From NCBI GenBank assembly GCA_035573895.1, contig DATLZR010000040.1:1-64000 (forward strand): a stretch of DNA of 64,000 nt, written 5' to 3'. The notes beneath the pieces were generated by a model, which was not told the origin of the DNA, did not search any database, and worked only from the letters and a program-made list of their open reading frames with translations. Numbering within the stretch: position 1 is the first letter of the stretch; the number at the start of each line of letters is the position of its first letter. The translations under genes and the position numbers were made by a program. Positions 4,029 to 52,031 of the stretch are shown piece after piece. The stretch comes from Blastocatellia bacterium (GTDB taxonomy: Bacteria > Acidobacteriota > Blastocatellia > HR10).

Positions 4029-4055
4029 AGCGCGATTCCTTCCTCTTGTTTCCAC

Positions 4056-4880: not shown

Positions 4881-4918
4881 GATCACTCACACGGAGAGGG
4901 AATACGACAACGCCGGCC

Positions 4919-5833: not shown

Positions 5834-6193
5834 TAGACAGTCCTCCTGCTGGTTAGGATTGGTGCAACTCTCAATGCTGTTTTTGATCAAACGCTCCCAA
5901 GCGAATGCCATTGATTCAATCGGCGGTCGGAATCAGGCACTTCATGGACCCTCTTCTGACCAACCCGGCCTGATTTTAAGACAAACCTCCAGCGAGCACA
6001 AGGGTAAGGCCGCAACCGCTCGAAGGCAGCAAATCCTGGGTAGGAATGGCCCGAGAGCGCGACAGGAACAGGCGGCAGTTTGTGTTCGCCTCCATCGGTC
6101 ATCCCTCCTGCCTCTCCTGGCACAGGTCACCAAGGAAAGCCGGTACAGACCTTTCTCTCGCATACCCCTCTCACTCCACAAGATAAAAAAGCA
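5834..6193. other. Gene-free stretch, 360 bases
   Basis: Between the permease stop and the start of the TPR gene, both on the minus strand. I see no open frame with a plausible ribosome site and no strong hairpin. It should carry the promoter of the TPR-rnc-lepB group, but no convincing -35/-10 pair stands out. Confidence 0.5.
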
Positions 6194-7933
6194 TCAGGTC
6201 TCCGCTCTGCTCCGATGCAAAACAATCGCGGTAACGACAAGCAGCAGCCCCAGGATGACTCCGGCTTCAAACCCCATATCGGTCAGGGTGAGCATCGAAC
6301 GGGCGTATTGAATTTGACCCGTTGCCCCGCTGGTGGTCGCTCGTGCAAGTGCTTCCTGATAGTGGTGACTCGCGGCCAAACTGACAAAACCGAGGATGAT
6401 TGTGGAAACGCCGCTCAAGACCATTCGCAAGGTTCCTCGGCGCTTCTGCGCCTCCAGCAGACGGCTGTGGCTCAGGCCATACCAGGCGTAGATCAACAAT
6501 CCGACGGCGAGCCATACCCCGAATCGCACCCAGGTGATGCGGGGGAGGCTGATCATCAGATAGAGGCAACTGAAAATTCCCAGAAGCGGCACCGCGGGCA
6601 CCAGAGGAGCCTTGAACGGGCGCGGCCGCTCAGGATCGGTGTGGCGAAGGATAATGACACCCGCACAAACGAGCACAAAGGCGAAGAGTGTTCCAATATT
6701 GGTCAGTTCCGCGGCATCGCCGATGTCCACGAACGCTGCCGGGACTGCGACGAAGATTCCCGTCAGGATGGTCGTCAGGTACGGCGTTTTGAATCGTGGG
6801 TGAACCGAAGCAAATCGCGCGGGCAACAATCCGTCACGGGACATGGAAAAGAAGATGCGCGGCTGACCCATCTGGAAGACGAGCAAAACTGACGTCGTCG
6901 CCATCACCGCCCCAAACGCCACAATCCCCGCAGCCCAGTTCAAATCCAGCGTCCGCAGCGCCAGCGCGAGAGGCTCGGCAACCCCAAGTTCCTTGTAGGA
7001 GATCAACCCGGTAAGAACGGCGGCGGTGACGACATAGAGAATCGTGCAAATGGCCAGCGACCCGATCATCCCCAGCGGCAAATCTCGCTGGGGATTTTTC
7101 GTCTCCTCGGCCGTGGTCGAGACGGCATCGAAACCGATGTAGGCGAAAAAGACGAGCGCTGCCCCCGTCATGATCCCCTCCCAGCCATTCGGAGCAAATG
7201 GCCGCCAGTTCTCCGGCTTGACGTAGACAAAGCCCACGATGATGAAAAACACAAGAACGAGCAGCTTCACTCCCACCATGATGGCATTGAAGCGAGCGCT
7301 CTCCTTGACTCCGATGACCAGGATCACGGTGAGCAGGGCGACGATGCCAAATGCGGGCAGATTCACAATGAGCGGCACTCCGAAAAGCTTCGGCGCATGA
7401 GCGACGATCTCCGGCCGATGGATGCCGACATTGTAACTGACCGTGAGCCACTGCCAGTTGGGGGGGATCTCCAGACCCAATCCCCGCAGAAGCTCGATGA
7501 AATACCCCGACCAGCTCACGGCGACAGCAATATTGCCGACGGCATATTCGAGAATGAGATCCCAGCCGATGATCCAGGCGACCAGCTCGCCGAGCGTCGC
7601 GTAGGCATAGGTGTAGGCGCTCCCCGAAATAGGGATGAGCGAAGCGAATTCAGCATAACACAGCGCACAAAAGCCGCAGGCGATTCCCGTGAGAATGAAA
7701 GAGACGATCAATCCCGGACCGGCTCCCGGTCGGAGGACTTCGCCCGTCACAGGATCAACCGTCCCGGCAGCCGCCGTGCCCGTCAGGGCAAAAATTCCCG
7801 CTCCGATGATGGCTCCCACGCCCAGCGCCGTCAGATCAACAGCCGTCAGCGCCCGTTTGAGCGAATACTCCGGCTTCTCGCTCTCGCGGAGGATCGAATC
7901 AACGCTCTTGACGCGAAAAAGCTCCTTGAACAT
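6194..7933 (-). CDS. APC-family amino acid permease (cationic amino acid transporter type)
   Basis: 579 residues with a dozen or more hydrophobic helices. The start of the transport domain shows the APC signature LKRALTAVDLTALGVGAIIGAGIFALTG (given here as family landmark), and the loop GFDAVSTTAEETKNPQRDLP is the hallmark of the CAT/YfnA branch, which carries basic or neutral amino acids with protons. The start at 7933 (MFKELFR) is preceded by GGAGG; a longer frame to 7969 has no better site. The gene stands alone between two gene-free regions. Its size, with extra C-terminal helices, fits the CAT branch; the actual substrate cannot be read from sequence. Confidence 0.88.
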   Translation of the reverse strand: MFKELFRVKSVDSILRESEKPEYSLKRALTAVDLTALGVGAIIGAGIFALTGTAAAGTVDPVTGEVLRPGAGPGLIVSFILTGIACGFCALCYAEFASLIPISGSAYTYAYATLGELVAWIIGWDLILEYAVGNIAVAVSWSGYFIELLRGLGLEIPPNWQWLTVSYNVGIHRPEIVAHAPKLFGVPLIVNLPAFGIVALLTVILVIGVKESARFNAIMVGVKLLVLVFFIIVGFVYVKPENWRPFAPNGWEGIMTGAALVFFAYIGFDAVSTTAEETKNPQRDLPLGMIGSLAICTILYVVTAAVLTGLISYKELGVAEPLALALRTLDLNWAAGIVAFGAVMATTSVLLVFQMGQPRIFFSMSRDGLLPARFASVHPRFKTPYLTTILTGIFVAVPAAFVDIGDAAELTNIGTLFAFVLVCAGVIILRHTDPERPRPFKAPLVPAVPLLGIFSCLYLMISLPRITWVRFGVWLAVGLLIYAWYGLSHSRLLEAQKRRGTLRMVLSGVSTIILGFVSLAASHHYQEALARATTSGATGQIQYARSMLTLTDMGFEAGVILGLLLVVTAIVLHRSRAET

Positions 7934-9125
7934 GCATCCTCCAAGAGTGTGCCGCAGGCCGTCCAGCATCGCGCCGCCACGGCGAGCTGGAAAGTCTGCG
8001 CCCTCGTTTTACTGCTCCCGGACATGCCTGCACACCACGCGATGGGGCGAAAAGGAACGCTCCTCAAGACGAGTTATCGCGCTCCTCATCGCTTCCCCTC
8101 CGTCGGGACAGCGAGACGATAGCCGAGTCCATGCCACGAAGTCAAACATCCTTCCACCACTCCGTGAACACCCCCGCCTCATCCCCTGGACGGGCTGATT
8201 TCTTGTAACCAGCGCTTCCCCACGTCAGGCGCTCAACCCGATGGTGCCCCGACGCCCCTCGGGCAAAGGGAGTATTACCGGTGGCGTGCAATTCGTATCG
8301 GCTTCCCCCGCATGAGAAGGCGCGAGAATTTTTCAAACTCACGCTCGATGGAGTGTGTCTCAAATGGTGACGAGTTGCTTAGAACGAGGGGGGCGGGCCA
8401 TAAGATCGGGACGATGCATGTCGGCGTTTATTCTGAGCGACCTTTCAGAGTGGGGTTTGCAGCCTGCTGACACACGCCTTCCCGTAGCATCGCCCTTCGG
8501 CCATGCGAGGGATCAGCAGCAGGGCGGACGGACATGCTCAGAAGCATGAGCTACATTTTCGGGGGTGACGATGAAAGGCCTCATTAAGCGCGACGCTGCA
8601 ACACGGAAGGTCGGCTCCGGGATACTTTTTCTGTTCCTCATCGAGAGCCCGCTGGGTGGAGAGACCTTGCTGCCTCCGGGAGATGCATACGCCTTCGGCG
8701 AGACCACGGTCAACCGGCAGGGCATTTCAACGATTCATCGAGCAGAATATCGGATCTGGGCGAGCAGTATCCGGAGCGGCTGCAACCAAAGAAAGAGTCC
8801 CCCCGCCCATGAAAAGCGCCCACTGATGATTGATCGGTGGGATCCCTTCATCCCGCGTCAATTTTCTGAAGAGTTGGTCATGGTGCCGAGCAATACCAAG
8901 AAACGATTGAAAAATTCGGGAGCGCGCATTTACAGCGGGTCCGGCTTTCTCTCCCGCCGAGCACGGGAGACGTCCGCTACCGGGATATTTCTTGAGGAAT
9001 CGCCCATATGCTCATGCGCGCTGCGAAGAAGGAAAAGGCGTTTACTAACGGATGAAAAGGCCAGCCGAAGAATGATCCATTGAACCCTTTCATCCGCTGG
9101 AGATGATTCCCAAGGGAGGACATTT
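7934..9125. other. Gene-poor stretch, about 1.2 kb
   Basis: No frame here has both protein-like composition and a usable ribosome site. The longest (8565-9083, plus) is rich in Arg/Ser/Pro and has no recognisable segment. The 3' part contains repeat material: ATGAAAA-type half elements near 8810-8870 and an imperfect palindrome at 9046-9100. The promoter for the downstream glycan island must lie here, but I could not identify it. Confidence 0.5.
9046..9100. repeat. Dispersed palindrome, family A, copy 1
   Basis: Left arm TAACGGATGAAAAGG (9046-9060) faces right arm CCCTTTCATCCGCTGG (9085-9100), an imperfect inverted repeat about 25 bases apart. It ends 26 bases before the start of the 1,356-residue protein, so it lies in that gene's leader. 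Related copies occur at 49606, 55464 and 58474. Confidence 0.6.
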
Positions 9126-12100
9126 ATGAACACCCTCATGCGAATCGGTTGTCTCACGGCAACGGTCTTGTTGGGAGTACAAGCTCCGATTGTCAGCACG
9201 CGTGAAACGGGTCGCGCCGAACCCGTCTTACTTTTCGGCATCGGGATGCACATCGAGCCGCTGGGTCGAACGGCTCAAGGCTACGGCAGCGGCGGAGCCG
9301 ATTATCGCCAGGGGTCGCTCTTTGAGCGCCACGTGCAAGACATTCTCACCGTAGCGAGGATGATCGAAGCCCACGGCGGGCGCATGACCGTTCAGGCGCA
9401 ATCGCCGTTCACCCAGGTTGCGACCGAACGAGGCAACACCATTCTCGCCGATCTTGAGGCCCGGGGCCACGAGATCGGTCTGCACTTTCACGAGGATGCC
9501 CATCTCGGAAGGAACCCGGAGCAGCTTGCCGTCGAGACCTGGTGCGCCGTGATGCAACAGGAGATCGGACTCATTCATCAAGCGGGCGTGAAGAATCGCA
9601 TTCGCTACTGGAGCGGGGGCAATCTCTATCCGGGACTGCTGGGAGCGGCATCTTGCGCCGGACTTGAAGTCAACAGCGACTGGAAGAATCCGAGAACTCA
9701 ACGTACAGACCCTTCGCTTTTGGGAGTGAATCCCTGGCGTCCGACGGGCGGCCCGAGCGAGAACGACCTCTCGGCCTTTGCCACGCACAATCCCAACGGG
9801 AAGATCGTCTTCTTGCCCGAGGGCATGTATGACCCGGAGGAGTTCGCGCGCAAGCGCGAGATCATCGCTCAGGGAGGAGATCAGGCGTGGTTCGAGGTGC
9901 TGCGCGAGGCATTAGAAAGCTCGCTCGCATCAGCGAGAGCCGATCGAGTCAACGTCTTTCACTTCACGGTCCATCCGGGAGAATTTCGCGGTGATTCCAA
10001 TCGTCCCTTTGGCGCCATCGAGGATTTTCTCACCCGCGTCGTAGACCCGCTCGTCGAGCAGGGACGTGTGCGCTGGGCGACGTTTTCGCAGATGACCGAT
10101 GAGTTCATCGAGTGGGAAGAGACGCATCCGGGCGTTGACCCACGCTCTTCATCAGCAGCGATGGCCGCCACCGTATCCACAACCACGAACATACGGGCCA
10201 CCCCCCGTGCTGTTCAGAAACAAGCCTCACCCTCACCGGCAGGCTACATAACGTTTGCCATCAACGTGCATGACTGGCGGAACATTGACGAGAGCGCCAA
10301 CACGTTGCTGCGATTGATCAGCATCTTTGAAAAATACGGCGTGCGTGGGGATTTCTATCTGACCGAACCGATGGTCTACGCCTATGCTGAACGTCGTCCC
10401 GAGGTCATCACCCGGCTCAAAGAGAGTGGCATGACCATTAGCTATCACGTCCGCCCGCCGCACGCGCTTTACGTGGGGTTCGATCAGGCGTTGCGTGGGC
10501 TGAGCGGGCAGGCGTTGACCGAAGCCCTGCGAGAGTATGAGACGTACAGGCTCGATCTGGCCACCGGCGGATTACTGCGCGACCAGCCCGGCGGCTACAG
10601 TTTCGTGGCGCAAACGTTCGGTCGCCCACCGGTGGTCGTGGGCGCGCCCAACAACAATCCCACCATCAAGACGGCGGCCTTGCGAGTTTACAAAGAGCTG
10701 GGCGCGCAGATGGCCGTGATTTATCACGAATGCTGCGCTGATCCCGATCAACCGTTTGAATATCGGGACGGATTGCTTGTGCGACCGAGCGATTTCAGCA
10801 TCACGCGCTGGTCGGTGTCAGGTGGGCCACAAGAGGCCTTCTGGTGGAACATGCTCCAGAGCCGCTATGCAGCCGAGTACAATCCGACGAACTATTTGAA
10901 GAAGAAGCTGAGTGAATGGAGCGGGTCGCGTCCCCCATTTATCACCGCGCTCATTCACGAGAATAATTTCTCGCGGCAAGGCCCGGAAAGCTGGACGCTC
11001 GTCTACTACGCGGATCGAGAGCGAACCCGGCCGCTCATCCCCCCGTTTGATTTGAATGCGCCGGACCTGTCTCGCCCCCGATCGCCCGAGGAACAAGAAG
11101 CAATCTGGGCGGCATACGAGCAACTGGTCGCCTATGCTGCAGCCAACCTGCGCGTGGTCACTTCGGAAGATATCGTAGCGATGGCCGATGAAAGTATGGT
11201 CAACGAGAATACGAGCAACGAGCAGGCGTTGAGCGCCCCTGCCCCTGCAAACAACGCCGCGACCGCCTCATCGAGCCAGACTCAAGCGGGCCGCGTTGAT
11301 CGAGATGTCACCTATTGCACCGTGGGCGATGTGGCCTTGAAGATGGACATTTACTATCCTGCGGCCAGTCGTGGTCCGGCGCCGGTTGCCGTCTACGTCC
11401 ACGGCGGCGGCTGGACGACCGGCGACAAAGCCCGCGGCGAGGGCGTGCGAGACATCCCCGAGCTTGTTGCTCGCGGTTATCTTGTGGCCGCCGTCAACTA
11501 TCGCCTGGCGCCGCGCTACAAGTTCCCGGCGATGATTCAAGATGTCAAGTGCGCTGTGCGATTCTTGAGAGCGAATGCCAGGCGATACAACATCAACCCC
11601 GACAGGATCGGGGCGTGGGGTGGCAGCGCCGGTGGGCACCTGGTTGCGCTCCTGGGAACCGCCGACGAAACGGCAGGCTGGGATGTCGGGCAATATCTTG
11701 ACTACTCCAGCCGGATACAAGCCGTCGTTGATATGTTCGGCCCAACAGACCTGACGGCGATTTTCGACGGAGCGAACCCGCGTCTGCTGGAGCAGGTCTT
11801 CGGCACAACGGACCGCACTTCTGAGGCGGTCCGACGCGCCAGCCCCGTGACGTGGGTTTCTCGGGACGATCCGCCCTTTCTCATCTTACACGGCGAGCGT
11901 GATCCGCTGGTGCCGCCCAGCCAGTCACAGATCTTTTACGACAAGCTTGTCCAGACGGGTGTGCCCGCCACGCTAGTCATGGTGAAGAACGCCGGCCACG
12001 GGTTCGTCCCGATGGGCGGGCCCATCAGCCCGACTCGCGATGAGCTGACCAGGATGATCGCCGACTTCTTCGATCGGTATCTGAAGAAAATGCCAGCCAG

Positions 12101-29536: not shown

Positions 29537-30018
29537 AGCGATCAAAACCCTTCAAGCTGAGATTTGCGCTGATCTGGAGAGTGTCGAGCGAATCTTCCGC
29601 GAACTGGACGGAATTCGCCAGGAGCTACCTCCGGATCGCCCTCCTTCTCTTCGGGACAAGGCAGTCATGGGCTATCTGCTCCACAATTTGTACTGCGCTT
29701 TCGAAAATAAAAAACATTGCAGCCCTGTTCGGCAATGCACCGGCTGATCCCGAATCCTGGCACGCTTATCTGCTCAAACGGATGACCCTTACGATTGAAT
29801 CGGTCCGCCCGTCTGTGATCGGATCGGAGTCTTACGAAGCCCTCGGCGAACTGCGGCGATGTGGCCACCTCTTCCGTCATGCCTATACGATGGACCTGGA
29901 CTGGGAACGGATGAGCCTGGTCCTGCGCAAGGTGGATCTGCTTCTGCGGAACCGGTATCGGCAGGAACTGGCTGAGTTCATCGCATTCCTAGACGACCTG
30001 AGCGCGTCCCTGCCCTGA
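29526..30018 (+). pseudogene. HEPN-domain (HepT-like) RNase toxin gene, frameshifted
   Basis: The first frame starts at ATG 29526 (MTREAIKTLQAEI) and is HEPN-like through LLHNLYCAFEN; the family-like sequence then continues in the +1 frame as KNIAALFGNAPADPESW and on to the stop at 30018. The switch falls in a six-adenine run near 29709-29714; with five adenines the text would read CAFENKNIAALFGN without interruption. The C-terminal part has the HEPN Arg-x4-6-His type motif in the RRCGHLFRHAYTMDLDWER region. One extra base therefore breaks a toxin of about 163 residues. It may be a real inactivating mutation, an assembly error or a slippage site. The upstream MNT partner is intact. Confidence 0.7.
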
Positions 30019-36913: not shown

Positions 36914-37354
36914 TCAAAAGAGTTTCTTAACCGCTTTACCGGCGGAGGTCACGCCTTTGGCCGTACCTTTTGCGGCAGCGGTTGCTCCCTTGGCCGCCCC
37001 TTTCCCTGCTGCAGTGGCACCTGTCGCGGTTGCCTTGGCAGCCGTGGTCGCTCCTTCTGCTGTGGTTTCACCTACCTTCTCTGATGCCCCGGCGGTGGCT
37101 TTGCCCGCCGTGGTTGCGCCCTTAGCCGTGGCTTTGGCCGCCGCCGTGCCGGCTTTTGCCGTCGCTTTCCCGACCGTAGTGATGGCTCTGGTCAGCAGTC
37201 CGCGACGCTTCTTTTTCTCGACCTTGACTTCCTGGCTTTCCGAACTCTGGCCTTCTGACCAGACCGCAGATGCGGCGACGAAGGTCACCGGTGACAGAGC
37301 AAGCGTCACAATGCCCGCGACAATCAGAGACTGCCTTATTCGGTTGCCCATCAT
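36914..37354 (-). CDS. Secreted Lys/Ala/Gly/Thr-rich repeat protein (histone H1- or LEA-like composition)
   Basis: 146 residues with a signal peptide (about 1-29, core LIVAGIVTLALSPV), a short acidic/basic linker (SQEVKVEKKKRRG), then about 90 residues built from degenerate units such as TAAKATAKGATTAGKA. The spacing is roughly eleven residues, giving a basic amphipathic pattern as in LEA-type or H1-like proteins. The export signal argues against a nucleoid role; binding to polyanions or envelope stabilisation is possible but unproven. GAGG lies seven bases before the ATG. It is divergent from the VWA gene, with 55 bases between. Confidence 0.65.
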   Translation of the reverse strand: MMGNRIRQSLIVAGIVTLALSPVTFVAASAVWSEGQSSESQEVKVEKKKRRGLLTRAITTVGKATAKAGTAAAKATAKGATTAGKATAGASEKVGETTAEGATTAAKATATGATAAGKGAAKGATAAAKGTAKGVTSAGKAVKKLF

Positions 37355-41458: not shown

Positions 41459-43318
41459 CTAATTTTTGGCTGTCTTCTGAACGGCTTGCAGAACGTCAAT
41501 GCGGCCGCTGCCAAGCTTCCCCCAGTATTTGGGGGGATTGATCGAATCAATCGGCGCTGTGGCCGCTTTAATAATAGGGATGACCCGGCGGCGCGCACTC
41601 GTACTCCGTTGCACCGCTGGCGGAAGAGCCGATAAAATCAAGGCGGCTTCACCACTGACCAGTGCTGTGGCAAACGAGGTGCCGCTCCACCAGGCAAATT
41701 TGCCGCCGGGATAGGCGCTGTAGAGGCCCACGCCCGGAGCCGATACGTCAATGTGTCCCCCGTAGTTGGAGAAGCTGGCCTTCACATCAGAAGCATCGGT
41801 TGCTGCTACAGCAACGACATCGGGATCGTTGGCCGGATACTGAGACAGTTGCAGTCCCTCATTGCCCGCCGCTGCCACTCCGGTGACGCCGAAAAACTCA
41901 GCGTAGCTCAGCGCTCGATCCAGAACAATAGAGCGAGTATCCATGCCGAAACTCATGTTGATGACGCGAGCTCCGTTATTCGTGGCAAAGACGATGGCCT
42001 TGGCGATGTCAAACGTCGTTCCTTCACCGGAGGCATTGAAGGCACGCAGGGCCATGATCTTGGCCCGCGGCGCGACCAGGGCGATGAGGCCCGCGACAAA
42101 CGTCCCATGACCGAAGCCGAGGCCCCGACCGGTCTCCGAGGGATCCGGGTCATTGTCAACGAAGTCGTAAAGGGTTTGGCTTAACCGCCCCTGGAAGGCC
42201 GGGTGTCTGAGATCAATTCCGGTGTCAATGACGGCCACTGTGACGCCTTCTCCTCGAGCCGCTCGCTGAGCCTGTTTCAGGTTGATGCGGTCCAGCGCCG
42301 ACTGATCGAAGTAGTTCGGCGGCGACGATCCGTCCACAAATGCAGCTCCCTTCTGATCCACGAAGGCAGCTCCTTTCTGTTCGACTTCAGGCATCTGCAA
42401 GATAAAGTTCGGTTCGCTATCGGCAATGTCAGGATCGGATCGCAACTGGGCGAGGACCTTATCCACCGTCGTTCCTGCCGGAATCTTGACTCGATAGAAG
42501 TTGGTGTTCTCGATGCGGTCGAGAACCTGCAACTGGTAGCGACTGGCGATGCTGGCAATCGGCACCGGGCCGGCGATCTCGATGATGACTTCCTCGTCAT
42601 GGGATCGTCGTCGAGGAGTGGTTTCCACAGCCTCTTCGAGCAAGTCCTCAGCATCGTCAGCTAAATCCTCGGCCCGATGCGCAAGGTTCCGGGCAGCGGT
42701 AAAGTCGCCGGCGGCAAAGGCCGCTTTGGCTCGGCTGAGGACCGCTATCGCCTCATTGAGTGTCGCCTGAGCCGCTTGAACGTTGATCCCCTCCGACTGG
42801 AAGCGGGTGATCTTGGCTTGCACCTCCTCAATGGCGTGCTGAGCATCAGCGATAGCCTCTTCCGCTTCCTGGCGACTGCGGCTGGTGTCACTAATGGCCT
42901 CCTCGGCCAGCACGGCGGCCTCCTCGGCTAATTCCTCGGCCTCTTGAGCCAGTCGTTCTGCCGCCGCGTACTCGCGCAGGAGAAAAGCTGCTCGAGCCTC
43001 CGTCAACTTGCTCTGTGCCTGATTGAGTCTGGCCGAAGCAGCCGAGACATCAGCTCCCACGGCAAGCGCTTCGTTAATGGCTTCCTGCGCTTCCTCGATG
43101 GCCTCGGCGGCCTCCTTCAACGCTTGCTCCGCTTGTTCAGCGGACTCGTTCAGAGACTTCAGGACGCCTGCCTGTCCAGGAGGTCCCTGATGCGTTCCCG
43201 GAATGCCCTCTTGGGGCAGAATCGCGAGCAATCCGATGACACCCACGCACGCGCCGCAGACAAACCGACGGAGAGTCGAGCGCATTGGTCGGCGACGCCT
43301 TTCATCTGCCTTCCTCAT
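41459..43318 (-). CDS. Subtilisin-like serine protease (S8) with N-terminal coiled-coil repeats
   Basis: 619 residues. A signal/anchor segment (about residues 20-38) is followed by two Ala/Glu-rich helical repeats (about 60-215; e.g. ARAAFLLREYAAAERLAQEA and KAAFAAGDFTAARNLAHRA), an I9-like propeptide region (about 230-320) and the S8 catalytic domain. The triad is Asp365 in AVIDTGID, His404 in GHGTFVAG and Ser548 in GTSFATA, with oxyanion Asn in AAGNEG. A short duplication, QKGAAFVDQKGAAFVD, sits at the prodomain/catalytic border. I choose ATG 43318, preceded by AAAGGGGGGCTT; a GTG at 43348 touches the CHAT stop. It is the last gene of the sigma/CHAT operon and is probably exported, acting outside the cytoplasm unlike the CHAT protein. 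Confidence 0.88.
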   Translation of the reverse strand: MRKADERRRRPMRSTLRRFVCGACVGVIGLLAILPQEGIPGTHQGPPGQAGVLKSLNESAEQAEQALKEAAEAIEEAQEAINEALAVGADVSAASARLNQAQSKLTEARAAFLLREYAAAERLAQEAEELAEEAAVLAEEAISDTSRSRQEAEEAIADAQHAIEEVQAKITRFQSEGINVQAAQATLNEAIAVLSRAKAAFAAGDFTAARNLAHRAEDLADDAEDLLEEAVETTPRRRSHDEEVIIEIAGPVPIASIASRYQLQVLDRIENTNFYRVKIPAGTTVDKVLAQLRSDPDIADSEPNFILQMPEVEQKGAAFVDQKGAAFVDGSSPPNYFDQSALDRINLKQAQRAARGEGVTVAVIDTGIDLRHPAFQGRLSQTLYDFVDNDPDPSETGRGLGFGHGTFVAGLIALVAPRAKIMALRAFNASGEGTTFDIAKAIVFATNNGARVINMSFGMDTRSIVLDRALSYAEFFGVTGVAAAGNEGLQLSQYPANDPDVVAVAATDASDVKASFSNYGGHIDVSAPGVGLYSAYPGGKFAWWSGTSFATALVSGEAALILSALPPAVQRSTSARRRVIPIIKAATAPIDSINPPKYWGKLGSGRIDVLQAVQKTAKN

Positions 43319-43344
43319 AAGCCCCCCTTTGCCCGATGACTCTT

Positions 43345-46266
43345 TCACTCAGGGCTCCCCATGATCACGAAGGGCGCCCAGTAGTAAGGATGTGCGTACG
43401 CCTCGCGCGTCTTCAGTTGCGCTTCGCGCAGAGCCTGCCTCTTCGACCGTCCCTGGCGCAGTTTATCATAAAACTCGCGCATGAGCAGGGTCGTCGAAGC
43501 GTCATTGACAGCCCACAAACTGACCACCAGTGAGGGAACCCCAGCATAGAGGAATCCCCGCATCAAGCCGATCAATTCGTCGCCCGGGCAAATCTTATTC
43601 ACCCCGGTCTGGCAGGCGCTCAACGTGAGCAGGCGGGCTTTCAAGCCCAAGTTCCAGATGTCGTAGAAATTGAGCCAGGAGTTTTGCAGCCGGAGCGAGG
43701 AGAAGATGGGATTGTCGTGACGAAAGACCGCATGACAGGCCAGATGAATAAGCGAGGATTCTTTGGCGTAGGTTGTGACGTTGTGACTGGTGGCATCCTC
43801 GCCAAGTAACACACGAGCATTGGTGAGCAACTCTCTCACGGCCTGAACTTCTTGCTCGATGGCAGGCGCCGAGCGATCCGGCACACCCACGATGAGAGGG
43901 CGTGCCGCGCGATCCCGGGCATCGTACGTGCGACGACGGCTTCGTTCGAGGCACAGACGATAGACGGTGGCGCTCGGACAATACGACACCTCGTATTCGT
44001 CAATCAGGCAGCGCTCGCCATCGGTGAGAGCATGAAAGGGAATGTAATGGAGGAAGCCGTGAGGAATGATGATGAGTTTGCGCCGTCTGAGGAGAAATGG
44101 GCGCACAGGAGCGACGAGTTCCCTGTAAAGCGCCTTGAGATATTGTTCCGTGCAGTGGGCGAGCGCCTGCCACCGCGTGCGAACATAATCGCCGTTGAAA
44201 ACCTGCTTATCCAGATGAAATCGGAGATGCCGCAACAACGGATGCGCACGGGAAACATCGGACAGGGCGCGTACGGCCCTGACCCCGTCACGGTCCAGGA
44301 TGAAGGCCGCGATCTCCCCCTGTGCCATGTAGTATTCCACCACGGCTTCATCCTCGGCGAGTTCTCCGGCCAGTTCCTCCGGCAGAACTTGGGGCACACC
44401 TACCGGAGAGACGCCTCCTTCTTGATGCCACTGGATGGTGCGAAGCAGCTTGTTGAGTTCGGACTCGCGGATGCGAATCTCACCCTGAATCTGCAGGGCC
44501 AGGTCACGGCGGGTGGCCCCTTCTTTCTGCTCCAGATGATTGAGCGTGCTGTAGTACCAGTCGAGTTCCTCACGGAGTCGTTTCCATCGTTCGAGCAACT
44601 CAGGGTCGAGAGAGGCCGTCGTGTCGGATTCGATCCCGAGGGCCGCCCCGAGCAGGTCAGCCAGGGCCCGTGATTTCGCCGCTTCGGTATAAGCGAAGGC
44701 TTGCCGGATCTTTTCCGGTGAGCCCTCGGCCAGGCAGAGGGCGACCATCCGTTCGTAGGCTTTCAGCTTGTCCGAAAGGAAGCTGGCCTTCATTTCATCC
44801 ACGCGGATGCGGCTGCGCAGGGATTCGATCAGTTCGATGGCGCGGGCATACTGGTCGGCGGCGGCTTTTGTATCTCCCGATCTCTCCAGAAGTGTTCCAA
44901 GCAGGTAGTTGCATTGATACTTCAACCAGGGTGCGTCCACCGACTCGATGCGGCCGAGAGCCCGCAGGAGGCGCCGTTTCGCTCGATTGGTCTGTCCCCG
45001 GGCGGCGGCCACGCGAGCCACCAGCAGTTCAGCAAATGCTTCCTTCGTCTCCAGCCGGCACTGACGGAAGAGGCAAGCGGCCTGCTCGGCTCTCCGGCCG
45101 GCGTCGCGCCATTTTTTCTTCTGAGCCAGAAGCTCGGCCAGGTAGAGGTCGCACAACGCCGTTGCCACCCGATTCTTTTGACGTCGAAAGGTACGTCGAG
45201 CCTGCCGCAAATCTGCGGCCGCATGATCCCACGCCCCCAGATGCAGGCGGGCGACGCCGCTGAGCATCTGCGCCCGGGCCTGCTCGGTCCTCATCCGCAA
45301 CCGGGCAAAACCACGACGGGCAGCTTCGGCGGCCTCCAGCACATCCTCGTAGGCATTCAACTGAAGGTACAGCTCGGCCATGTCGAGATCGCAGAGGACC
45401 TCAAGCGACTCCTCCCCAACAGCGCGAGCGGCGGCTTTCACGGCTGTGAATAAGCGAATCGCTTCGTCGAATTTTCCTCGCAGGAATTCGAGATAAGCCA
45501 GATTGTATTCGGTTTGAATGACCATCAGCGACAGGCCGAGGGCCTGGAACATCTCGCGCGCCTGTTCGAACAGCCGGGCCGATCGGTGATAGTCGCCCAG
45601 GCAGGACCACACCATCGCCAGATTCATCAGGACATGGGCCAGCGCTCGTGAGTCGCCGCCCGGCTGGAGAAGCGCCTGAGCCTGCTCGAAGAAGCGACGG
45701 GCCTTGTGGTATTCATCCAGGTGGTGATAGATCAAACCGACATTGGATTTGAGTTCCGCCAGCAGGTGCGTTTGCTTGTGGGCTTCAAAGATTGTGCTGA
45801 GGCGGTCGGCCAGTTCAAGGGCTTCCTCGTACCGATTGAGATACATGAGAGCGACGATCTTGGCCCGCCCGACGCGTGCCGCTTCCAAGACTTCGCCCTG
45901 CTCGGCATAGAGGATCTCGGCGCGATCAAAGAGTCGTAATGCTTCCTGGTTGCGCCCCAGGCGGTAGGCCACCATCGCCCGTGCATGAGAGGCCAGAGCC
46001 CGGCAGATCGGATCCCGCGTCTGCCGGGCGACGACGCGACACACGTCGGCCAGACGCGACGCCAAGGCCACATCTGCATGAAGCGCCTGGGAAACGCGAT
46101 TCTTCAGTTCCAGACAGAGAGCCCGCCCGATTTCACCCTTTTGGGACTTCAGCAAGGATTTCGCGCGATCCGGAGCTGTGGACGCCGCCAGTTGCTCGAC
46201 CAGCCGTCGCACGTGGTCGGAGATATCCCAGGCTCCCCCCTTAGTCTGTAAGCGCCCTGACTTCAA
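43345..46266 (-). CDS. TPR-CHAT protease
   Basis: 973 residues, no signal peptide. The first ~560 residues are tetratricopeptide helices (units such as GRNQEALRLFDRAEILYAEQ and GDYHRSARLFEQAREMF). A linker with a coiled coil leads to a C-terminal CHAT domain, a caspase/separase-like cysteine protease: His845 in HLACHAVF and Cys885 in LSACQTG, plus LMRGFLYAGVPSLVVSLW and the terminal YYWAPFVIMG, all typical of the family. The TTG start at 46266 lies within the zinc-finger gene's end (overlap 26 bases); another start a few codons in is possible. Predicted cytoplasmic. By position, the anti-sigma-like protein encoded next door is the natural candidate substrate, but that is inference. Confidence 0.88.
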   Translation of the reverse strand: MKSGRLQTKGGAWDISDHVRRLVEQLAASTAPDRAKSLLKSQKGEIGRALCLELKNRVSQALHADVALASRLADVCRVVARQTRDPICRALASHARAMVAYRLGRNQEALRLFDRAEILYAEQGEVLEAARVGRAKIVALMYLNRYEEALELADRLSTIFEAHKQTHLLAELKSNVGLIYHHLDEYHKARRFFEQAQALLQPGGDSRALAHVLMNLAMVWSCLGDYHRSARLFEQAREMFQALGLSLMVIQTEYNLAYLEFLRGKFDEAIRLFTAVKAAARAVGEESLEVLCDLDMAELYLQLNAYEDVLEAAEAARRGFARLRMRTEQARAQMLSGVARLHLGAWDHAAADLRQARRTFRRQKNRVATALCDLYLAELLAQKKKWRDAGRRAEQAACLFRQCRLETKEAFAELLVARVAAARGQTNRAKRRLLRALGRIESVDAPWLKYQCNYLLGTLLERSGDTKAAADQYARAIELIESLRSRIRVDEMKASFLSDKLKAYERMVALCLAEGSPEKIRQAFAYTEAAKSRALADLLGAALGIESDTTASLDPELLERWKRLREELDWYYSTLNHLEQKEGATRRDLALQIQGEIRIRESELNKLLRTIQWHQEGGVSPVGVPQVLPEELAGELAEDEAVVEYYMAQGEIAAFILDRDGVRAVRALSDVSRAHPLLRHLRFHLDKQVFNGDYVRTRWQALAHCTEQYLKALYRELVAPVRPFLLRRRKLIIIPHGFLHYIPFHALTDGERCLIDEYEVSYCPSATVYRLCLERSRRRTYDARDRAARPLIVGVPDRSAPAIEQEVQAVRELLTNARVLLGEDATSHNVTTYAKESSLIHLACHAVFRHDNPIFSSLRLQNSWLNFYDIWNLGLKARLLTLSACQTGVNKICPGDELIGLMRGFLYAGVPSLVVSLWAVNDASTTLLMREFYDKLRQGRSKRQALREAQLKTREAYAHPYYWAPFVIMGSPE

Positions 46267-46864
46267 GCGGCGTAATCCATGCCTCCTTTCCCTGGAGTTC
46301 GATTTTCAGCTCATATACCCCAACAGCAATGCGCTCGAAGGTGAATTCGCCGAGATGGTTCGTCACCGTCTGCGCGACTACTTCTTCTCCCCGTCGCAAT
46401 TGAACCGGCACACCGCTCACTTCCTGGAAACTATCCGAGGGTCCGAGGATTTGACCGGTCAGGGTGACCCGGTCCGTTCCATTGGCCGGTTCAAATGACA
46501 GATCAATATCGTAGCCTTCCCACCGGTAGAGGCACTGTCGCGTCGCCACGCCGAGCGAGCGCACCCCGACAAGTCCTGGCTGGACCGCCGTATCGAACAC
46601 AAGCGTCGCGATAATCCGCGACACCATGCCCGGCCGCGGCGACGGGCCATACCGGGCAAACAGATCAACAGCCTGCTGGATGACCCAGGAGGGCGGATCA
46701 ACCGAATCATCCGTCGTCATCAACGGGATGACCGTTTCCAGCCACTTTAATTCCCTTTGGCATCGTCGGCAGCGACCGAGATGATTGCGGATAGCGTGCG
46801 CCTCTTTGTCGGCGCATAACTCCTGATAAAACTGGAGGAGTTTTTCCAGACTGTAGCACGTCAT
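46241..46864 (-). CDS. Soluble zinc-finger (zf-HC2) anti-sigma-like protein with C-terminal beta domain
   Basis: 207 residues. The N-terminal HLGRCRRC, after a Cys-containing helix, is the His-x3-Cys-x2-Cys zinc signature of anti-sigma factors. There is no transmembrane helix, so unlike most such proteins it is cytosolic. The C-terminal region (about 150-197: VPVQLRRGEEVVAQTV, LGEFTFERIAVGVYELKI) resembles the carboxypeptidase-regulatory/Ig-like beta sandwich. It probably binds the ECF sigma factor encoded upstream. GAGGAGGCTCGATC precedes the ATG. Its stop overlaps the TPR-CHAT start. Confidence 0.82.
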   Translation of the reverse strand: MTCYSLEKLLQFYQELCADKEAHAIRNHLGRCRRCQRELKWLETVIPLMTTDDSVDPPSWVIQQAVDLFARYGPSPRPGMVSRIIATLVFDTAVQPGLVGVRSLGVATRQCLYRWEGYDIDLSFEPANGTDRVTLTGQILGPSDSFQEVSGVPVQLRRGEEVVAQTVTNHLGEFTFERIAVGVYELKIELQGKEAWITPLEVRALTD

Positions 46865-47159
46865 GATCGAGCCTCCTCATAGACCCTGTCGAATTCCCCA
46901 CGGACGACGGAAAAGACCGGGATGAAGCATGGCCAGCCGGCACGGCCATCGAGGAATCATCCCCCGGTCCTCCCATCGTTTATCCCCCTGCACGAGGCGG
47001 CTTCTGGGTCAGAGCCCGGCTAAGGATTGCGCCAGCCGTCGTGGCCTCTCCCCGGTCGCCTCCTCTCGGTATTATCTTCCGCCACTATTGTGGAGCCCTC
47101 CGATTGCGGAAAAATACATGTCTGCGCCTGTGACCGACGGCTCTTCCCTTCTCCGGGGA
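46865..47159. other. 295-base spacer between sigma factor and zinc-finger genes
   Basis: Unusually long for genes of the same strand with coupled neighbours on either side. No protein-coding frame is credible. It may hold a second promoter, possibly recognised by the ECF factor itself, or a leader RNA. I see a GATAAT-like box on the minus strand within CGGAAGATAATACC but no defined partner. Confidence 0.35.
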
Positions 47160-47738
47160 TCACTCCCGGAAGCCTAACTCTTCCAGAATCTTCCTGAGTT
47201 TTTGCAGGCAGCGGCCGCGGGTCGGACCGATGCTGGCTACCGGCATGCCCAGTTCGCGCGAGATCTGTTCGTAGCTCCACTCGTCCTGCTCGTAGAAAAG
47301 CATCTGGAGCAATCGCCGACAGCGGTCGGGAAGCCGTTCCATTCCCAGGCGGATCAGATGCTGCTTCTCCCATCGTTCGACCAGTTCATCGAGCGGCGGG
47401 CTCTCATCAGGAAGATCCACGGGATGTCCTTCCTCATCCTCTAACGGCGTTGTTTCCACAGGATCCCGCCGCCGAAGTTTCCAGCATTCGCGGAGCGTCG
47501 TCGTGATCAGCCAGGAACTGAGCTTGCTGTGATCCTTCAAGCCGTCAAGCCCCTTGAGCATGATGAGGCACACCGACTGAAAGACATCCGCCGCTTCATC
47601 GGGCGTGAACTGATACCTTCGCGGGATGGAAAAAATCAGCCGTTTATAGCGATGAATGAGCGCCTCCCAGGCGCGGCTGTCCCCTTTCAAACAGCACGCC
47701 ACAAGCTCGGCATCCGTCATTCGGGCGTAGGTCTTCAT
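47160..47738 (-). CDS. ECF-type RNA polymerase sigma factor
   Basis: 192 residues. Region 2 is visible as WEALIHRYKRLIFSIPRRY with DEAADVFQSVCLIML and the DNA-melting part LSSWLITTTLRECW; region 4 as LPDRCRRLLQMLFYEQDEWSYEQISRELGMPVASIGPTRGRCLQKL, a helix-turn-helix. The chosen ATG at 47738 overlaps the stop of the peptide-binding lipoprotein gene as ATGA, so translation is coupled. Downstream lie an anti-sigma-like zinc-finger protein, a TPR-CHAT protease and a subtilase, presumably its regulators or targets. Confidence 0.92.
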   Translation of the reverse strand: MKTYARMTDAELVACCLKGDSRAWEALIHRYKRLIFSIPRRYQFTPDEAADVFQSVCLIMLKGLDGLKDHSKLSSWLITTTLRECWKLRRRDPVETTPLEDEEGHPVDLPDESPPLDELVERWEKQHLIRLGMERLPDRCRRLLQMLFYEQDEWSYEQISRELGMPVASIGPTRGRCLQKLRKILEELGFRE

Positions 47739-49447
47739 TCCAGATAAAGTTCCTCCGCATTCCACAGCAGTGGATCCTGGAGCAGGCCGGGTTTGAGGTT
47801 TCTCACCGTCGGTTTGGCGGCGACGATGAGGTCACGGGCCACCAGGTAGATGAACGGGACCTGCTCGCTCAAAATCATCTGCACCTCATCGAACAAGGCC
47901 TTTCGTCGCTTCTGGTCAGCCGCGGTCAGAAACTCGTTGAGCAGCTCGTCCACCCGCTTCTCCCAATCAGTGGCGGGCCGGGGTTGCTGAGGATTCCACC
48001 AGTGATTGGCCCCGCTGCTGAGCAAAAAATTCCTGAGCGACGAAGGATCGGTATCGCCCGCCGCAATCGCCAGCAACCCCGCTTCGTAATCCGTTCCCCG
48101 CGCGATCCGTTCGAGCATCGTCTTCGTTTCGATGGGCGCGAAAGTGACGCCGATGCCTACTTTTTTCAGGTCCTCCTGGATCATCAAGCCCATCCGTTCC
48201 CGAATGGCATTTCCGGCATTGGTCATCAACGTGAAGGTCACCCGGTTCCCCTGCCGATCCTCCAGGATGCCATCGCCGTTGCGGTCGCTAAATCCCGCTT
48301 CCGCCAGCAGTGCCTTCGCGCGATCGGGATCATACGGATAGGTTTTCACCTGAGGATTAAACCACCGACTCGTTGCCGGGACCGGTCCCCATACGGGCGC
48401 AGCCTTTCCGGCGAACACCACGTCAATGAGGGCTTGACGGTTGATCGCATAGGAGACGGCTTGACGAAATCTTGTGTCCTGGAACCAGGCGAGCTTGGTC
48501 GGGCTCAGTGAGCGCGCGCGAGGATTCAAATTAAACCACATCACTTCCGAGATGAGGCTGGGACCGAGATCGTAAATGCGAATCCGATTCGTCGCCACCT
48601 GGGGTTGAAGCGTCGCCACTTCGTCAGGGGTCAGCGGTGAGAGCATGTCGAGTTCCCCCTGCTGGAACTTCAGTACTCGCGTGCTCCGATCCGGCACAAT
48701 GAGCAAAATGATCTCATCCAGATAGGGAAGAGGTTGACCACTGGGGTCTCGCTTCCAGTAATGGGGATTGCGCACGAGAATGGTCCTTTCGCCGGGCACA
48801 TATTCCTTGAGCCGAAACGGTCCCACCCCAACGATCTGATCCGGCGGTGTTGAAAGATCCCAGAGCGAAGCAAATCGCCCTGCGCGGTAATCGGCCTCCA
48901 GCCGATGGCGGGGCAAAATGTGAATCGAATCGAGCAACCGCTCGCTCGCCGCTACCGGTCGGGGAAAAGTAAGAGTCACCGTGTAGGGATCGCGTTTCTC
49001 GACGACGATCTTTTTCCCGTCCACATCCAGTAAATCGCGGAGGGAACTCCTCAGCGCCGGATCGTATATCACCTCAAACGTGAACAGAACGTCATCCGCC
49101 GTCAACGGATGGCCGTCAGAAAAGGTAACCCCCTTACGCAATCGAATCGTCAGGACCGTGTGGTCCGGCGAATAGCTCAGAGATTCCGCCAGTTCGGGTT
49201 CGGCCTCCCCCGTCTGCCGGTTGATGCGCACGAGCACCGACATGATGCAGTTGAGGATGGCGAGCGTATCCGTATCGGTCGCAAACAGGGGATTGAACGT
49301 TTTTGGCCCCGAGGACTGAGAGACAACCAGTCGGCCTCCCCGCGCCGGGGCTGACGGAGCCGTCGAGCGGCGCTCGCAGCCCGCCGTCCCCGCAAGAAGC
49401 GACAAAAAAAGCCACAGGCCGATACCCAACCGGACCCGGTGCTTCAT
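47735..49447 (-). CDS. ABC transporter substrate-binding lipoprotein (peptide/nickel family 5)
   Basis: 570 residues. The lipoprotein signal ends LLAGTAGC with Cys24 as lipidation site. The body is family-5 solute-binding: FNPLFATDTDT near the start, LAESLSYSPDHTVLTIRLRKGVTFSDGHPLTADDV, and later TRFRQAVSYAINRQALID. It captures oligopeptides or similar solutes for the divergent DppB/DppC-like permeases. AAGGAGGT lies before the ATG and a TATAAT promoter at 49485-49512. Its stop overlaps the start of the sigma-factor gene, which makes it first gene of that operon, an odd partnership. Confidence 0.92.
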   Translation of the reverse strand: MKHRVRLGIGLWLFLSLLAGTAGCERRSTAPSAPARGGRLVVSQSSGPKTFNPLFATDTDTLAILNCIMSVLVRINRQTGEAEPELAESLSYSPDHTVLTIRLRKGVTFSDGHPLTADDVLFTFEVIYDPALRSSLRDLLDVDGKKIVVEKRDPYTVTLTFPRPVAASERLLDSIHILPRHRLEADYRAGRFASLWDLSTPPDQIVGVGPFRLKEYVPGERTILVRNPHYWKRDPSGQPLPYLDEIILLIVPDRSTRVLKFQQGELDMLSPLTPDEVATLQPQVATNRIRIYDLGPSLISEVMWFNLNPRARSLSPTKLAWFQDTRFRQAVSYAINRQALIDVVFAGKAAPVWGPVPATSRWFNPQVKTYPYDPDRAKALLAEAGFSDRNGDGILEDRQGNRVTFTLMTNAGNAIRERMGLMIQEDLKKVGIGVTFAPIETKTMLERIARGTDYEAGLLAIAAGDTDPSSLRNFLLSSGANHWWNPQQPRPATDWEKRVDELLNEFLTAADQKRRKALFDEVQMILSEQVPFIYLVARDLIVAAKPTVRNLKPGLLQDPLLWNAEELYLE

Positions 49448-49802: not shown

Positions 49803-50771
49803 ATGGTTCGCCTTTTTATTCGACGACTGGCCCAAGCCGTACCACTTGTGCTCGCCATCTCGATGGTGACGTTTGTGGCCGTCCATCTGGCTCCCGGCGA
49901 TCCCCTGACGGGGCTCCTGGAGAATCCCCATATCTCCCCGGAGACGGTAGAGGCAATTCGTCACCGGCTCGGACTGGATTTGCCCCTGTCAAGGCGCTAC
50001 CTTCGCTGGCTGTCTCACGCCCTCCAGGGGGACTTCGGTTACTCGATTGAATATCTGACGCCGATTTCCGCCCTGCTGCCAACACGAATACTCAACACGC
50101 TGATCCTGTCCCTCACGGCCAGCGGCATCGCCTGGGCAGTGGGAGTCCCCCTGGGGATCATCGCCGCCGTCGGACAGAACCGGTGGATAGGACGCGCTCA
50201 CACCCTCTTTGTCACGCTGGCGCTGGCGACGCCGCGAATCTTTCTGGCGCTTCTGGCGCTCGGGCTGGCCGCCACAACCGGCTGGTTCCCCATCGGCGGC
50301 ATGCGTGCGGTCGCCGGCGAGGCCGCTGACTGGATGTCCCGGACAGCCGACCTTCTCCACCATCTTGTTCTTCCCGCGCTGGTGCTGAGTCTCTCACCCA
50401 TGGCGATGATTTCCGGTCATCTACGGGCGGCGCTATCTGAGGTCGTGTCCCTTGACTTCATCCGCACGGCTCGAGCCAAGGGGCTCCCCCGGCGCGTCAT
50501 CCTCAGGAATCATGCTCTGCGAAATGCGCTCGGCCCACTCCTGATGCTCCTGGGCTATTCGATCGGGAATTTGCTCAGCGGGTCGGCCGTCGTGGAAACG
50601 GTGATGGCATGGCCAGGGATAGGTCGCCTGACGGTTGAAGCCGTTTTCGCCCGTGATAGCGATTTGATCCTGGCGACGGTTGTGCTCGCGTCGGTGCTGC
50701 TGATTGTGGGAAATTTGATCGCCGATGTGGTGCTATTGACCGTGGATCCGCGCGTGCGCATTCGCGCCTGA
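49803..50771 (+). CDS. ABC transporter permease, DppB type
   Basis: 322 residues, about six membrane helices. The start RLAQAVPLVLAISMVTF is typical, as are PGDPLTGLLENPHIS and GLDLPLSRRYLRWL; the EAA-like loop is RTARAKGLPRRVILRNHALRNAL. It forms the channel of a peptide-type ABC importer with DppC encoded next. GAGG lies five bases before the ATG. It is divergent from the substrate-binding lipoprotein gene. Confidence 0.92.
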   Translation: MVRLFIRRLAQAVPLVLAISMVTFVAVHLAPGDPLTGLLENPHISPETVEAIRHRLGLDLPLSRRYLRWLSHALQGDFGYSIEYLTPISALLPTRILNTLILSLTASGIAWAVGVPLGIIAAVGQNRWIGRAHTLFVTLALATPRIFLALLALGLAATTGWFPIGGMRAVAGEAADWMSRTADLLHHLVLPALVLSLSPMAMISGHLRAALSEVVSLDFIRTARAKGLPRRVILRNHALRNALGPLLMLLGYSIGNLLSGSAVVETVMAWPGIGRLTVEAVFARDSDLILATVVLASVLLIVGNLIADVVLLTVDPRVRIRA

Positions 50772-50816
50772 TGATGCCGGGCGCACTCGTTTCTGACTAT
50801 GCCGACGAGGACGACA

Positions 50817-52031
50817 ATGTCATCCGCTCTCACCAACCCGGTCCGGTCAACCCCACGGCCAACGCACGTCGGGCGCATCTGGTCCGACAAGCCTCTCCGA
50901 TGGCTCTTCGGCGCGATCGCGGCACTTTCTCTTGTGGCTCTCCTGGCAGGGTTCATCGCCCCTTACGATCATCGCAGCCAGGATCGCACGGCCATTAAAG
51001 CTCCACCGACTCGCTTGCACTTCATTGATGCCGAAGGCCGATTCCATCTGCGCCCGTTTATCTATCGGTCCCGGCTGGTGGATCGAACCACCTGGCGTTA
51101 TGAGGAGGATACTCGATGGCGCTATCCGCTGGTTTTCTTCGTTCGAGGGGATCGCGTTGAGCTATTTCCGGGAGTGACGACCTCGCTACACCTGTTCGGC
51201 GTCGGCGAAGCAGAGCCCCTCACGTCGGCTCAACGAGAAATTCACCCACTCCAGATGCCGACGGGATCCAGAGGTGAGAGCCCGCTGGCCACGCCGGAGC
51301 ATCCCCCTTTGCCGCCGCGACTCTACCTGCTGGGTGCTGACCACCTTGGTCGAGACGTTTTCTCACGCCTGCTTTTTGGTTGCCGACCGTCTCTTATCAT
51401 TGCTCTGGCCAGCGGATTGGGAGCATTGATCATCGGGTTGGTGCTGGGGTGCCTGGCCGGGTATTACGGAGGAGTGGTGGATGCTCTCTTGATGCGTCTG
51501 AATGAGCTGATCGAGTCCATCCCGGTGATTTTCTTCATCTTTGCCCTGCGGTCAGCTCTTCCTCTGGAACTGTCGCCGGACACGGCCCTGGGCATGCTCG
51601 TCGTCATCTTCGTTGCCATCAGTTGGACGACTGTCGCTCGCATCACGCGTGGGGCAGTCCTGTCGCTCGCCGGCCAGGAATTCCTTCTGGCAGCGCGTGC
51701 CGTAGGCGCCAGTGAAGGGCGCATTCTCCGTTGCTACATCCTGCCCCATGCCCTGACCCCCGCACTCACTCAAGCGACATTGACGGTTCCGGCCTTTCTT
51801 CTGGCCGAAGCCACTCTGTCCTTTCTGGGCGTGGGCATCTCAGAACCCGAACCGAGTTGGGGAAACATGCTAGCGGCGGCACGCGATCTGTCGGTGCTGA
51901 CGGCTCAGCCGTGGATGCTCAGTTCCGGTCTCGCCCTTGCGGCAACCGTCGCTTTGTTCATCGTCACGGGACATGCGCTCCGTCGCGCCCTTGATCCCCA
52001 GCGCCAGACGTCAGCTCCCGAATGGCTGTAA
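50817..52031 (+). CDS. ABC transporter permease, DppC type, with an extended periplasmic insert
   Basis: 404 residues. The first membrane helix (about 28-50) is followed by a periplasmic insert of roughly 100 residues, rich in charged and aromatic residues (LHFIDAEGRF, RLVDRTTWRYEED), before YLLGADHLGRDVFSRLLFG, where DppC proteins normally begin their channel part. The later EAA loop is ARAVGASEGRILRCYILPHAL. I choose ATG 50817 because GAGGACGACA precedes it; ATG 50799 lacks a site. No ATP-binding subunit gene lies in the window, so the ATPases must be shared or encoded elsewhere. Confidence 0.88.
   Translation: MSSALTNPVRSTPRPTHVGRIWSDKPLRWLFGAIAALSLVALLAGFIAPYDHRSQDRTAIKAPPTRLHFIDAEGRFHLRPFIYRSRLVDRTTWRYEEDTRWRYPLVFFVRGDRVELFPGVTTSLHLFGVGEAEPLTSAQREIHPLQMPTGSRGESPLATPEHPPLPPRLYLLGADHLGRDVFSRLLFGCRPSLIIALASGLGALIIGLVLGCLAGYYGGVVDALLMRLNELIESIPVIFFIFALRSALPLELSPDTALGMLVVIFVAISWTTVARITRGAVLSLAGQEFLLAARAVGASEGRILRCYILPHALTPALTQATLTVPAFLLAEATLSFLGVGISEPEPSWGNMLAAARDLSVLTAQPWMLSSGLALAATVALFIVTGHALRRALDPQRQTSAPEWL

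Follow-up and report, generated by a model that had tools for sequence, protein, structure and literature searches.

A recurrent operon of an ECF sigma factor, a soluble anti-sigma factor, a TPR-CHAT protease and a repeat-bearing subtilase: a possible peptide-controlled proteolytic switch

The window analysed here is a 64,000-nt stretch of DNA from a Blastocatellia bacterium (Acidobacteriota; HR10; assembly GCA_035573895.1, contig DATLZR010000040.1). At positions 41459–47738 it carries an operon that encodes, in this order on the minus strand, an extracytoplasmic function (ECF) sigma factor, a 207-aa zinc-finger (ZF) protein, a tetratricopeptide repeat (TPR)-CHAT cysteine protease and an exported subtilase (Table 1). 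All four open reading frames (ORFs) were found on one strand as the initial annotation had listed them, the sigma factor starting with an ATG at 47738 and matching TIGR02937 (E=1.6e-21). The CHAT and subtilase ORFs share 4 nt, a second 4-nt overlap (ATGA) joins the stop of an SBP_bac_5 gene to the sigma factor start, and a 295-bp gap separates the sigma factor gene from that of the 207-aa protein. No clustered regularly interspaced short palindromic repeats (CRISPR)-like array was detected at 30000–64000 of the window, in agreement with the annotation, and no Cas genes were present among the operon neighbours examined. Taken as a whole, the operon may constitute a proteolytic sigma factor switch, probably peptide-controlled, a reading that we put forward tentatively and at somewhat below an even chance.

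With the 207-aa protein as the sole query, 26 genomes among 58 relatives gave matches, and in their flanks sigma factor, CHAT and subtilase genes repeatedly adjoined the ZF gene. When 297 genomes from the phylum were searched with a profile and named genomes were scanned by way of CHAT, more acidobacterial classes, Chloroflexota metagenome-assembled genomes and Rubrobacter were added. Two orders of this four-gene module exist, sigma-ZF-CHAT-S8 and sigma-CHAT-ZF-S8. Among the 64 ZF loci with 5 kb on each side, 62 had a same-strand CHAT gene, 57 a same-strand sigma factor, 55 a subtilase and 51 all four genes; the CHAT count is inflated by loci that came through the CHAT search, those from the 58-relative and 297-genome searches being independent of CHAT. 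The same genome additionally holds a second full sigma/ZF/CHAT/S8 operon (L040, G000:C158:17230-32506, at 3706–9323 on the minus strand). As the gene order recurs this widely, including a second copy in one genome, it is not a product of chance. The initial annotation had made its model depend on conservation of this order in related genomes, which proved to be strong.

Inspection of individual loci revealed further features. A large TonB-receptor-like ORF lies upstream of the second operon, and in Terriglobia-type operons an HD-domain (HD_5) gene immediately follows the subtilase on its 3′ side (L146:11135–11821, plus strand, and ~11 similar loci). At one locus (L069, G008:C105), a single CHAT gene is flanked by two anti-sigma homologues, with no recognisable module sigma factor or subtilase nearby. 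Further CHAT genes of the Blastocatellia genome (G000:C119 and G000:C30; L001, L006, L008) appear broken, one by an in-frame TGA and one by a split across overlapping frames. A plasmid search with a Rubrobacter anti-sigma protein gave 0 matches, and a contig scan with the anti-sigma protein as single query found nothing, where the CHAT alignment as query gave matches.

Homology of its N-terminus makes it highly probable that the 207-aa protein functions as an anti-sigma factor. Over residues 1–77, the profile of the family finds RsiW, the anti-sigma-W factor (PDB 5wuq, E=1.9e-7), and it also finds the N-terminus of DdvA, bearing out the zf-HC2 anti-sigma-like assignment made initially; zf-HC2 on its own scores below the Pfam threshold (13.3 vs 22.2 bits). 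The zinc motif C-x..-H-x3-C-x2-C is present (C3, H28, C32 and C35) and no membrane helix was found in the protein, as annotated, or in 29 relatives. At the C-terminus, Pfam identified a CarboxypepD_reg/TTR-like domain that the annotation had overlooked. An AlphaFold2 model with a mean predicted local distance difference test score (pLDDT) of 88.8 begins with four helices, reaching residue 72, and a linker predicted weakly, followed by a strand (residues 87–91), a loop without secondary structure (residues 92–108) and, from residue 109, a beta-sandwich corresponding to the CarboxypepD_reg/TTR-like match. Judged from these matches, the ‘carboxypeptidase’ neighbour of such sigma factors corresponds to the C-terminal part of a soluble anti-sigma factor that resembles RsiW at its N-terminus. 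Since two divergent family members have no Pfam match at all, the anti-sigma factor may have gone unrecognised in such loci. A Csx30-like fold was considered for the ZF protein and rejected, as no Csx30 occurred among its PDB fold or sequence matches. In five family members (L079, L080, L081, L197 and L198) the zinc ligands are gone, with the following helix and Arg102 kept and the gene still beside sigma factor, CHAT and S8 genes.

Arg102 is the most conserved residue of the family, surpassing the zinc ligands: it was found in 115 of the 115 sequences aligned at this position (116 family members). Located between the sigma-binding part and the beta-sandwich, it stands in the context A-G-V-R-[S/G]-small-small, and its spacing to the next conserved arginine (R109) varies from 5 to 15 residues. 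An invariant residue within a loop of variable length suggests a protease site, and Arg102 might thus be the putative CHAT cleavage site, for which we see a little less than an even chance. Its invariance may instead reflect a structural or binding role.

The dyad named in the initial annotation, His845/Cys885, was confirmed and was invariant in 107 of 107 operon CHAT proteins aligned with coverage. The AlphaFold2 model (pLDDT 89.2) shows ~11 TPRs and a CHAT domain. A Foldseek search with the CHAT model returned Csx29 bound to Csx30 first, and also human separase, Craspase CHATs and DdvA; relatives of the TPR region include LGN, whose structures have linear peptide partners. The parallel drawn initially with type III-E CRISPR systems, in which Csx29 acts on Csx30, thus holds for the protease fold, but not for the ZF protein, which is not Csx30-like. 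The Csx29 model scored 60 against a cut-off of 300, with the dyad present and the fold closest to Csx29. We lean slightly towards the prediction that the CHAT protein cleaves the anti-sigma factor. In separase, D2151 reads the P1 arginine, and the Sb-CHAT equivalent is K670 (PMC9729208). D922 was considered here as an S1-type aspartate and discarded after alignment with K670, the position equivalent to separase D2151 being Thr926; with it, a separase-type S1 aspartate was rejected as the source of cleavage at arginine. PADLOC returned no match for the sigma factor, anti-sigma factor or CHAT protein and, for the subtilase, a generic subtilase match and a weak IetS match, so that a classification as defence system was not adopted.

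The subtilase comprises an N-terminal hydrophobic segment, a coiled region, a fervidolysin-type prodomain and an S8 catalytic domain. Its triad consists of the same residues as annotated and is invariant in 42 of 42 sequences; the earlier numbers (Asp365/His404/Ser548) counted from Met11 and become D375/H414/S558 from the GTG start. The octapeptide QKGAAFVD stands in two tandem copies between prodomain and catalytic domain, which differ by 4 synonymous nucleotides and are its only occurrences in the genome; the subtilase of the sister operon on contig C158 carries QRSVAFVD twice. Of 106 module subtilases, 57 had exact tandem units of 6–8 residues; among 29 unlinked subtilases there were 2, with repeats of a different kind located at the C-terminus. 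Low-complexity units outside the pattern (e.g. NDNGDT x8, PHTPVGS) account for a few of the 57, and further units include QRSLAFID, PRTIVFID, GHSWAI, GQSWSV (four copies) and QSTGAILD. The latter is present in 15 exact copies in one subtilase (L112, G246:C43; 8543–10474, plus strand), where synonymous codons differ in nearly all. In the Blastocatellia type, the unit lies at the prodomain junction at a fixed 47 residues ahead of the catalytic core, a position that holds a single-copy unit in other subtilases; in the Terriglobia type, units occupy an insertion between the catalytic Asp and His, some with an extra copy at the prodomain junction.

Only 6 of 361 copy pairs were identical in DNA (mean of 4.35 synonymous differences), and 175 synonymous vs 18 nonsynonymous codon changes separated the copies in a scan that picked them by DNA similarity and not by protein identity. 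By this codon evidence, the peptide copies are held identical by selection. Among module subtilases there were 45 distinct units; loci with two repeat-bearing subtilases had a common unit in 6 of 6 cases, at 49–66% protein identity, and in three Acidobacteriota genomes the peptide unit was essentially confined to module subtilases. As the unit is fixed within a locus, variable from locus to locus and tolerant of position and copy number, a cognate partner within the locus fits better than a structural role. Mimicry of the anti-sigma factor, sigma factor or CHAT protein by the octapeptide was also considered and rejected, same-locus scores equalling those of shuffled pairs.

A gene for an oligopeptide-binding protein, SBP_bac_5, lies immediately upstream of the sigma factor in 27 of 79 scorable operons, on the same strand in 26; the genome studied here has three SBP_bac_5 genes only. 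Both the upstream gene of the window and the tandem octapeptide had escaped the initial annotation. At Terriglobia-type loci, the binding-protein gene is the last of a complete importer set that also has two ATPases and two permeases and is of the oligopeptide type (oligo_HPY, OppC_N). Repeats were present in 25 of 28 operons with an importer vs 26 of 57 without (Fisher p=1e-4), a difference confounded by phylogeny. The initial annotation had taken the subtilase for an effector or output, which is probably wrong or incomplete: the operon-specific repeated peptide and the importer linkage look like input.

Partial correlations of pairwise distances over 71 operons (ZF-sigma 0.34, ZF-CHAT 0.28, CHAT-S8 0.52, ZF-S8 0.01) are consistent with a chain sigma-ZF-CHAT-S8, and peptide distance tracked the N-terminal TPR region (partial 0.30) above the subtilase (0.17); being uncorrected for phylogeny, these values serve as hints only.

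In the mechanism we propose, the anti-sigma protein would hold the ECF sigma factor via its RsiW-like N-terminal domain, until an activated TPR-CHAT protein cuts the loop after Arg102 (between AGVR and S/G). The cut would part the sigma-binding domain from the C-terminal beta-sandwich, inhibition would be lost and the sigma factor set free, possibly with autoregulation of the operon. The exported subtilase would be the signal source, its maturation or action releasing the operon-specific peptide outside the cell; the linked oligopeptide ATP-binding cassette (ABC) importer would bring the peptide back in, to be read by the extended superhelix of TPRs in the CHAT protein. That the peptide is a ligand of the TPR-CHAT protein, by import or as part of the precursor, appears to us evenly balanced. 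The imported route taken separately is possible but doubtful, and equally doubtful is the idea of an unrecognised form of peptide signalling in which the subtilase is a repeat-bearing precursor, the importer returns the peptide and the caspase-like TPR-CHAT protein is a receptor that cuts the anti-sigma factor at the invariant arginine. Within this last proposal, the paralogous operons of one genome, with their different peptides (QKGAAFVD and QRSVAFVD), would be insulated channels.

Several observations weigh against the peptide-controlled switch, besides the inflated CHAT count and the uncorrected distances. An exact repeat is missing from approximately 40% of module subtilases; a linked importer is absent in most Chloroflexota, Rubrobacter and several Blastocatellia operons; and the zinc ligands, kept in most family members, are lost in some. 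With Thr926 in place of the separase aspartate, a preference for arginine would be left unexplained by the separase-type S1 position. Regions upstream of the sigma factor revealed no enrichment of a common ECF promoter motif relative to shuffles.

The alternative that survives best retains the cleavage switch, but lets the TPR-CHAT protein bind the peptide on the unexported subtilase precursor, thereby monitoring secretion or precursor build-up. A peptide within the exported protein of the same operon, shifting in position as a docking tag would, fits this idea, as do the many operons lacking a linked importer and the kinship of the TPR region with LGN, solved with linear peptides. Against this stand the complete oligopeptide importer linked in many other operons and copy numbers of up to 15, which better suit a released peptide, and we consider the alternative unlikely. 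Rather improbable, too, is that the repeats merely serve the subtilase for autoprocessing or as its pseudo-substrate, without signalling, the subtilase being an output of the sigma switch. The fixed 47-residue position of the Blastocatellia-type unit at the prodomain junction, where subtilases mature, and the single-copy units at the same place in other proteins would be expected of processing sites; the Terriglobia-type unit, however, lies in the Asp–His insertion, and all eight positions are identical among copies and sister subtilases yet variable between operons. The closer tracking of the peptide with the TPR region than with the subtilase points the same way, if weakly.

Alternatively, the anti-sigma factor might sense another signal, with CHAT protein and subtilase as toxic or defensive outputs. 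CHAT proteases are defence effectors elsewhere (Craspase, PMC10028731), and DdvS/DdvA governs a defence island; yet PADLOC found at most generic matches here, the tightest linkage is that between the ZF and CHAT genes, and the importer linkage would be left unexplained, which renders such outputs quite improbable. Direct action of the proteases on the sigma factor without an anti-sigma factor, put forward for group ECF54 (PMC8999054), is very improbable, given that most operons encode an RsiW-like anti-sigma domain beside the sigma factor.

Table 1. Coordinates of the operon, its features and the linked transporter genes in the window.
Feature	Position	Strand	Remarks
ECF sigma factor, 192 aa	47160..47738	-	ATG at 47738; Sigma70_r2/r4; TIGR02937 E=1.6e-21; conserved neighbour
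Anti-sigma factor (predicted), 207 aa	46241..46864	-	zf-HC2/RsiW-like N-terminus, Arg102 loop, TTR-like C-terminal sandwich
Anti-sigma domain (predicted), residues 1-72	46649..46864	-	Zinc ligands C3, H28, C32, C35
Candidate cleavage loop, residues 92-108	46541..46591	-	Arg102 codon 46559-46561; consensus A-G-V-R-[S/G]
TPR-CHAT cysteine protease, 973 aa	43345..46266	-	~11 TPRs (residues 48-484), then CHAT; Pfam CHAT E=1.8e-68
Exported subtilase, 629 aa from GTG	41459..43348	-	Peptidase_S8 E=1.9e-43; Fervidolysin_NPro
Tandem octapeptide QKGAAFVD x2, subtilase residues 324-339	42332..42379	-	Between prodomain and catalytic domain
SBP_bac_5 oligopeptide-binding protein	47735..49447	-	Pfam E=5.1e-93; stop overlaps sigma start
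Oligopeptide ABC permease, DppB/OppB type	49803..50771	+ (divergent)	BPD_transp_1 and _N
Oligopeptide ABC permease, DppC/OppC type	50799..52031	+	BPD_transp_1; OppC_N weak

Elsewhere in the window (36914–37354, minus strand), a signal-peptide protein consists almost entirely of Lys/Ala/Thr/Gly-rich KATAKGATTAGKA-like repeats.

If the proposed switch were true, control of sigma factors by TPR-CHAT proteins would be a general chromosomal signalling design of at least Acidobacteriota, Chloroflexota and Actinomycetota, and not a CRISPR curiosity. An annotation gap would be mended, the ‘carboxypeptidase’ beside such sigma factors being an anti-sigma factor, and the operon-specific repeated peptide would provide a concrete candidate ligand for the activation of stand-alone TPR-CHAT proteases. 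Should the peptides be signals, they would amount to communication by peptides in phyla of soil and hot springs, for which knowledge is scant.

RRNPP signalling (Rap, NprR; Opp import) combines an exported short-peptide precursor, an oligopeptide importer and a TPR receptor. The likeness to the present module would lie in this layout of precursor, importer and TPR protein, with an importer linked here and in about a third of scorable operons but absent from others, and kinship in sequence is that of generic TPRs. In contrast, the role of receptor would fall to a protease that acts on an anti-sigma factor, and that of precursor to a repeat-bearing subtilase. RseA and RsiW likewise combine an RsiW-type anti-sigma domain with proteolytic release, which is proposed here, but they are membrane proteins handled by site-1 and site-2 proteases, whereas the present system would pair a cytosolic protein with a CHAT protease. 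Soluble zinc anti-sigma factors are found in the ECF groups ECF270 and ECF271.

Type III-E Craspase (Csx29, Csx30, CASP-sigma/RpoE; PMC10028731, PMC9729208) shares the TPR-CHAT protein of closest fold, a soluble sigma inhibitor (predicted here) and an ECF-type sigma factor; the present locus showed no Cas7-11/gRAMP among the operon neighbours examined, no CRISPR array at 30000–64000 and no Csx30 among the PDB fold or sequence matches. The sites cut by Craspases vary among orthologues (PMC11106740), whereas Arg102 is invariant, and the systems would differ in this respect. A single-chain zinc-finger/CHAT anti-sigma protein is already known: DdvA of Myxococcus xanthus (PDB 8ROT, 8RW5, 8RLZ) brings a zinc-finger anti-sigma domain and a CHAT fold to bear on one ECF sigma factor, as is proposed here. 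That factor is DdvS, by way of which DdvA controls a cyclic oligonucleotide-based antiphage signalling system (CBASS)-CRISPR island, according to references in PMC12288465. Unlike that single transmembrane chain, the present module has separate soluble anti-sigma and CHAT proteins, plus a subtilase in the operon.

The neighbourhood as such is partly known from group ECF54, whose conserved carboxypeptidase, subtilase and CHAT neighbours are described in Casas-Pastor 2021 and Huang 2015, as cited in de Dios 2022 (PMC8999054). The likeness rests on this shared neighbourhood (CarboxypepD-type, subtilase, CHAT). As far as that citing account goes, proteolytic control was proposed ‘without an anti-sigma factor’, and neither peptide repeats nor an importer are reported; here, the neighbouring protein carries an RsiW-like domain, and repeats and importer are both present. 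New relative to that account are thus the identity of the anti-sigma factor, its loop with the invariant arginine, the link to an importer and the peptide repeats. The pairing, in several phyla, of a sigma factor and its inhibitor with a caspase-like protease and an exported protease that bears many identical peptide copies suggests an as yet unrecognised, peptide-controlled gene on-switch.

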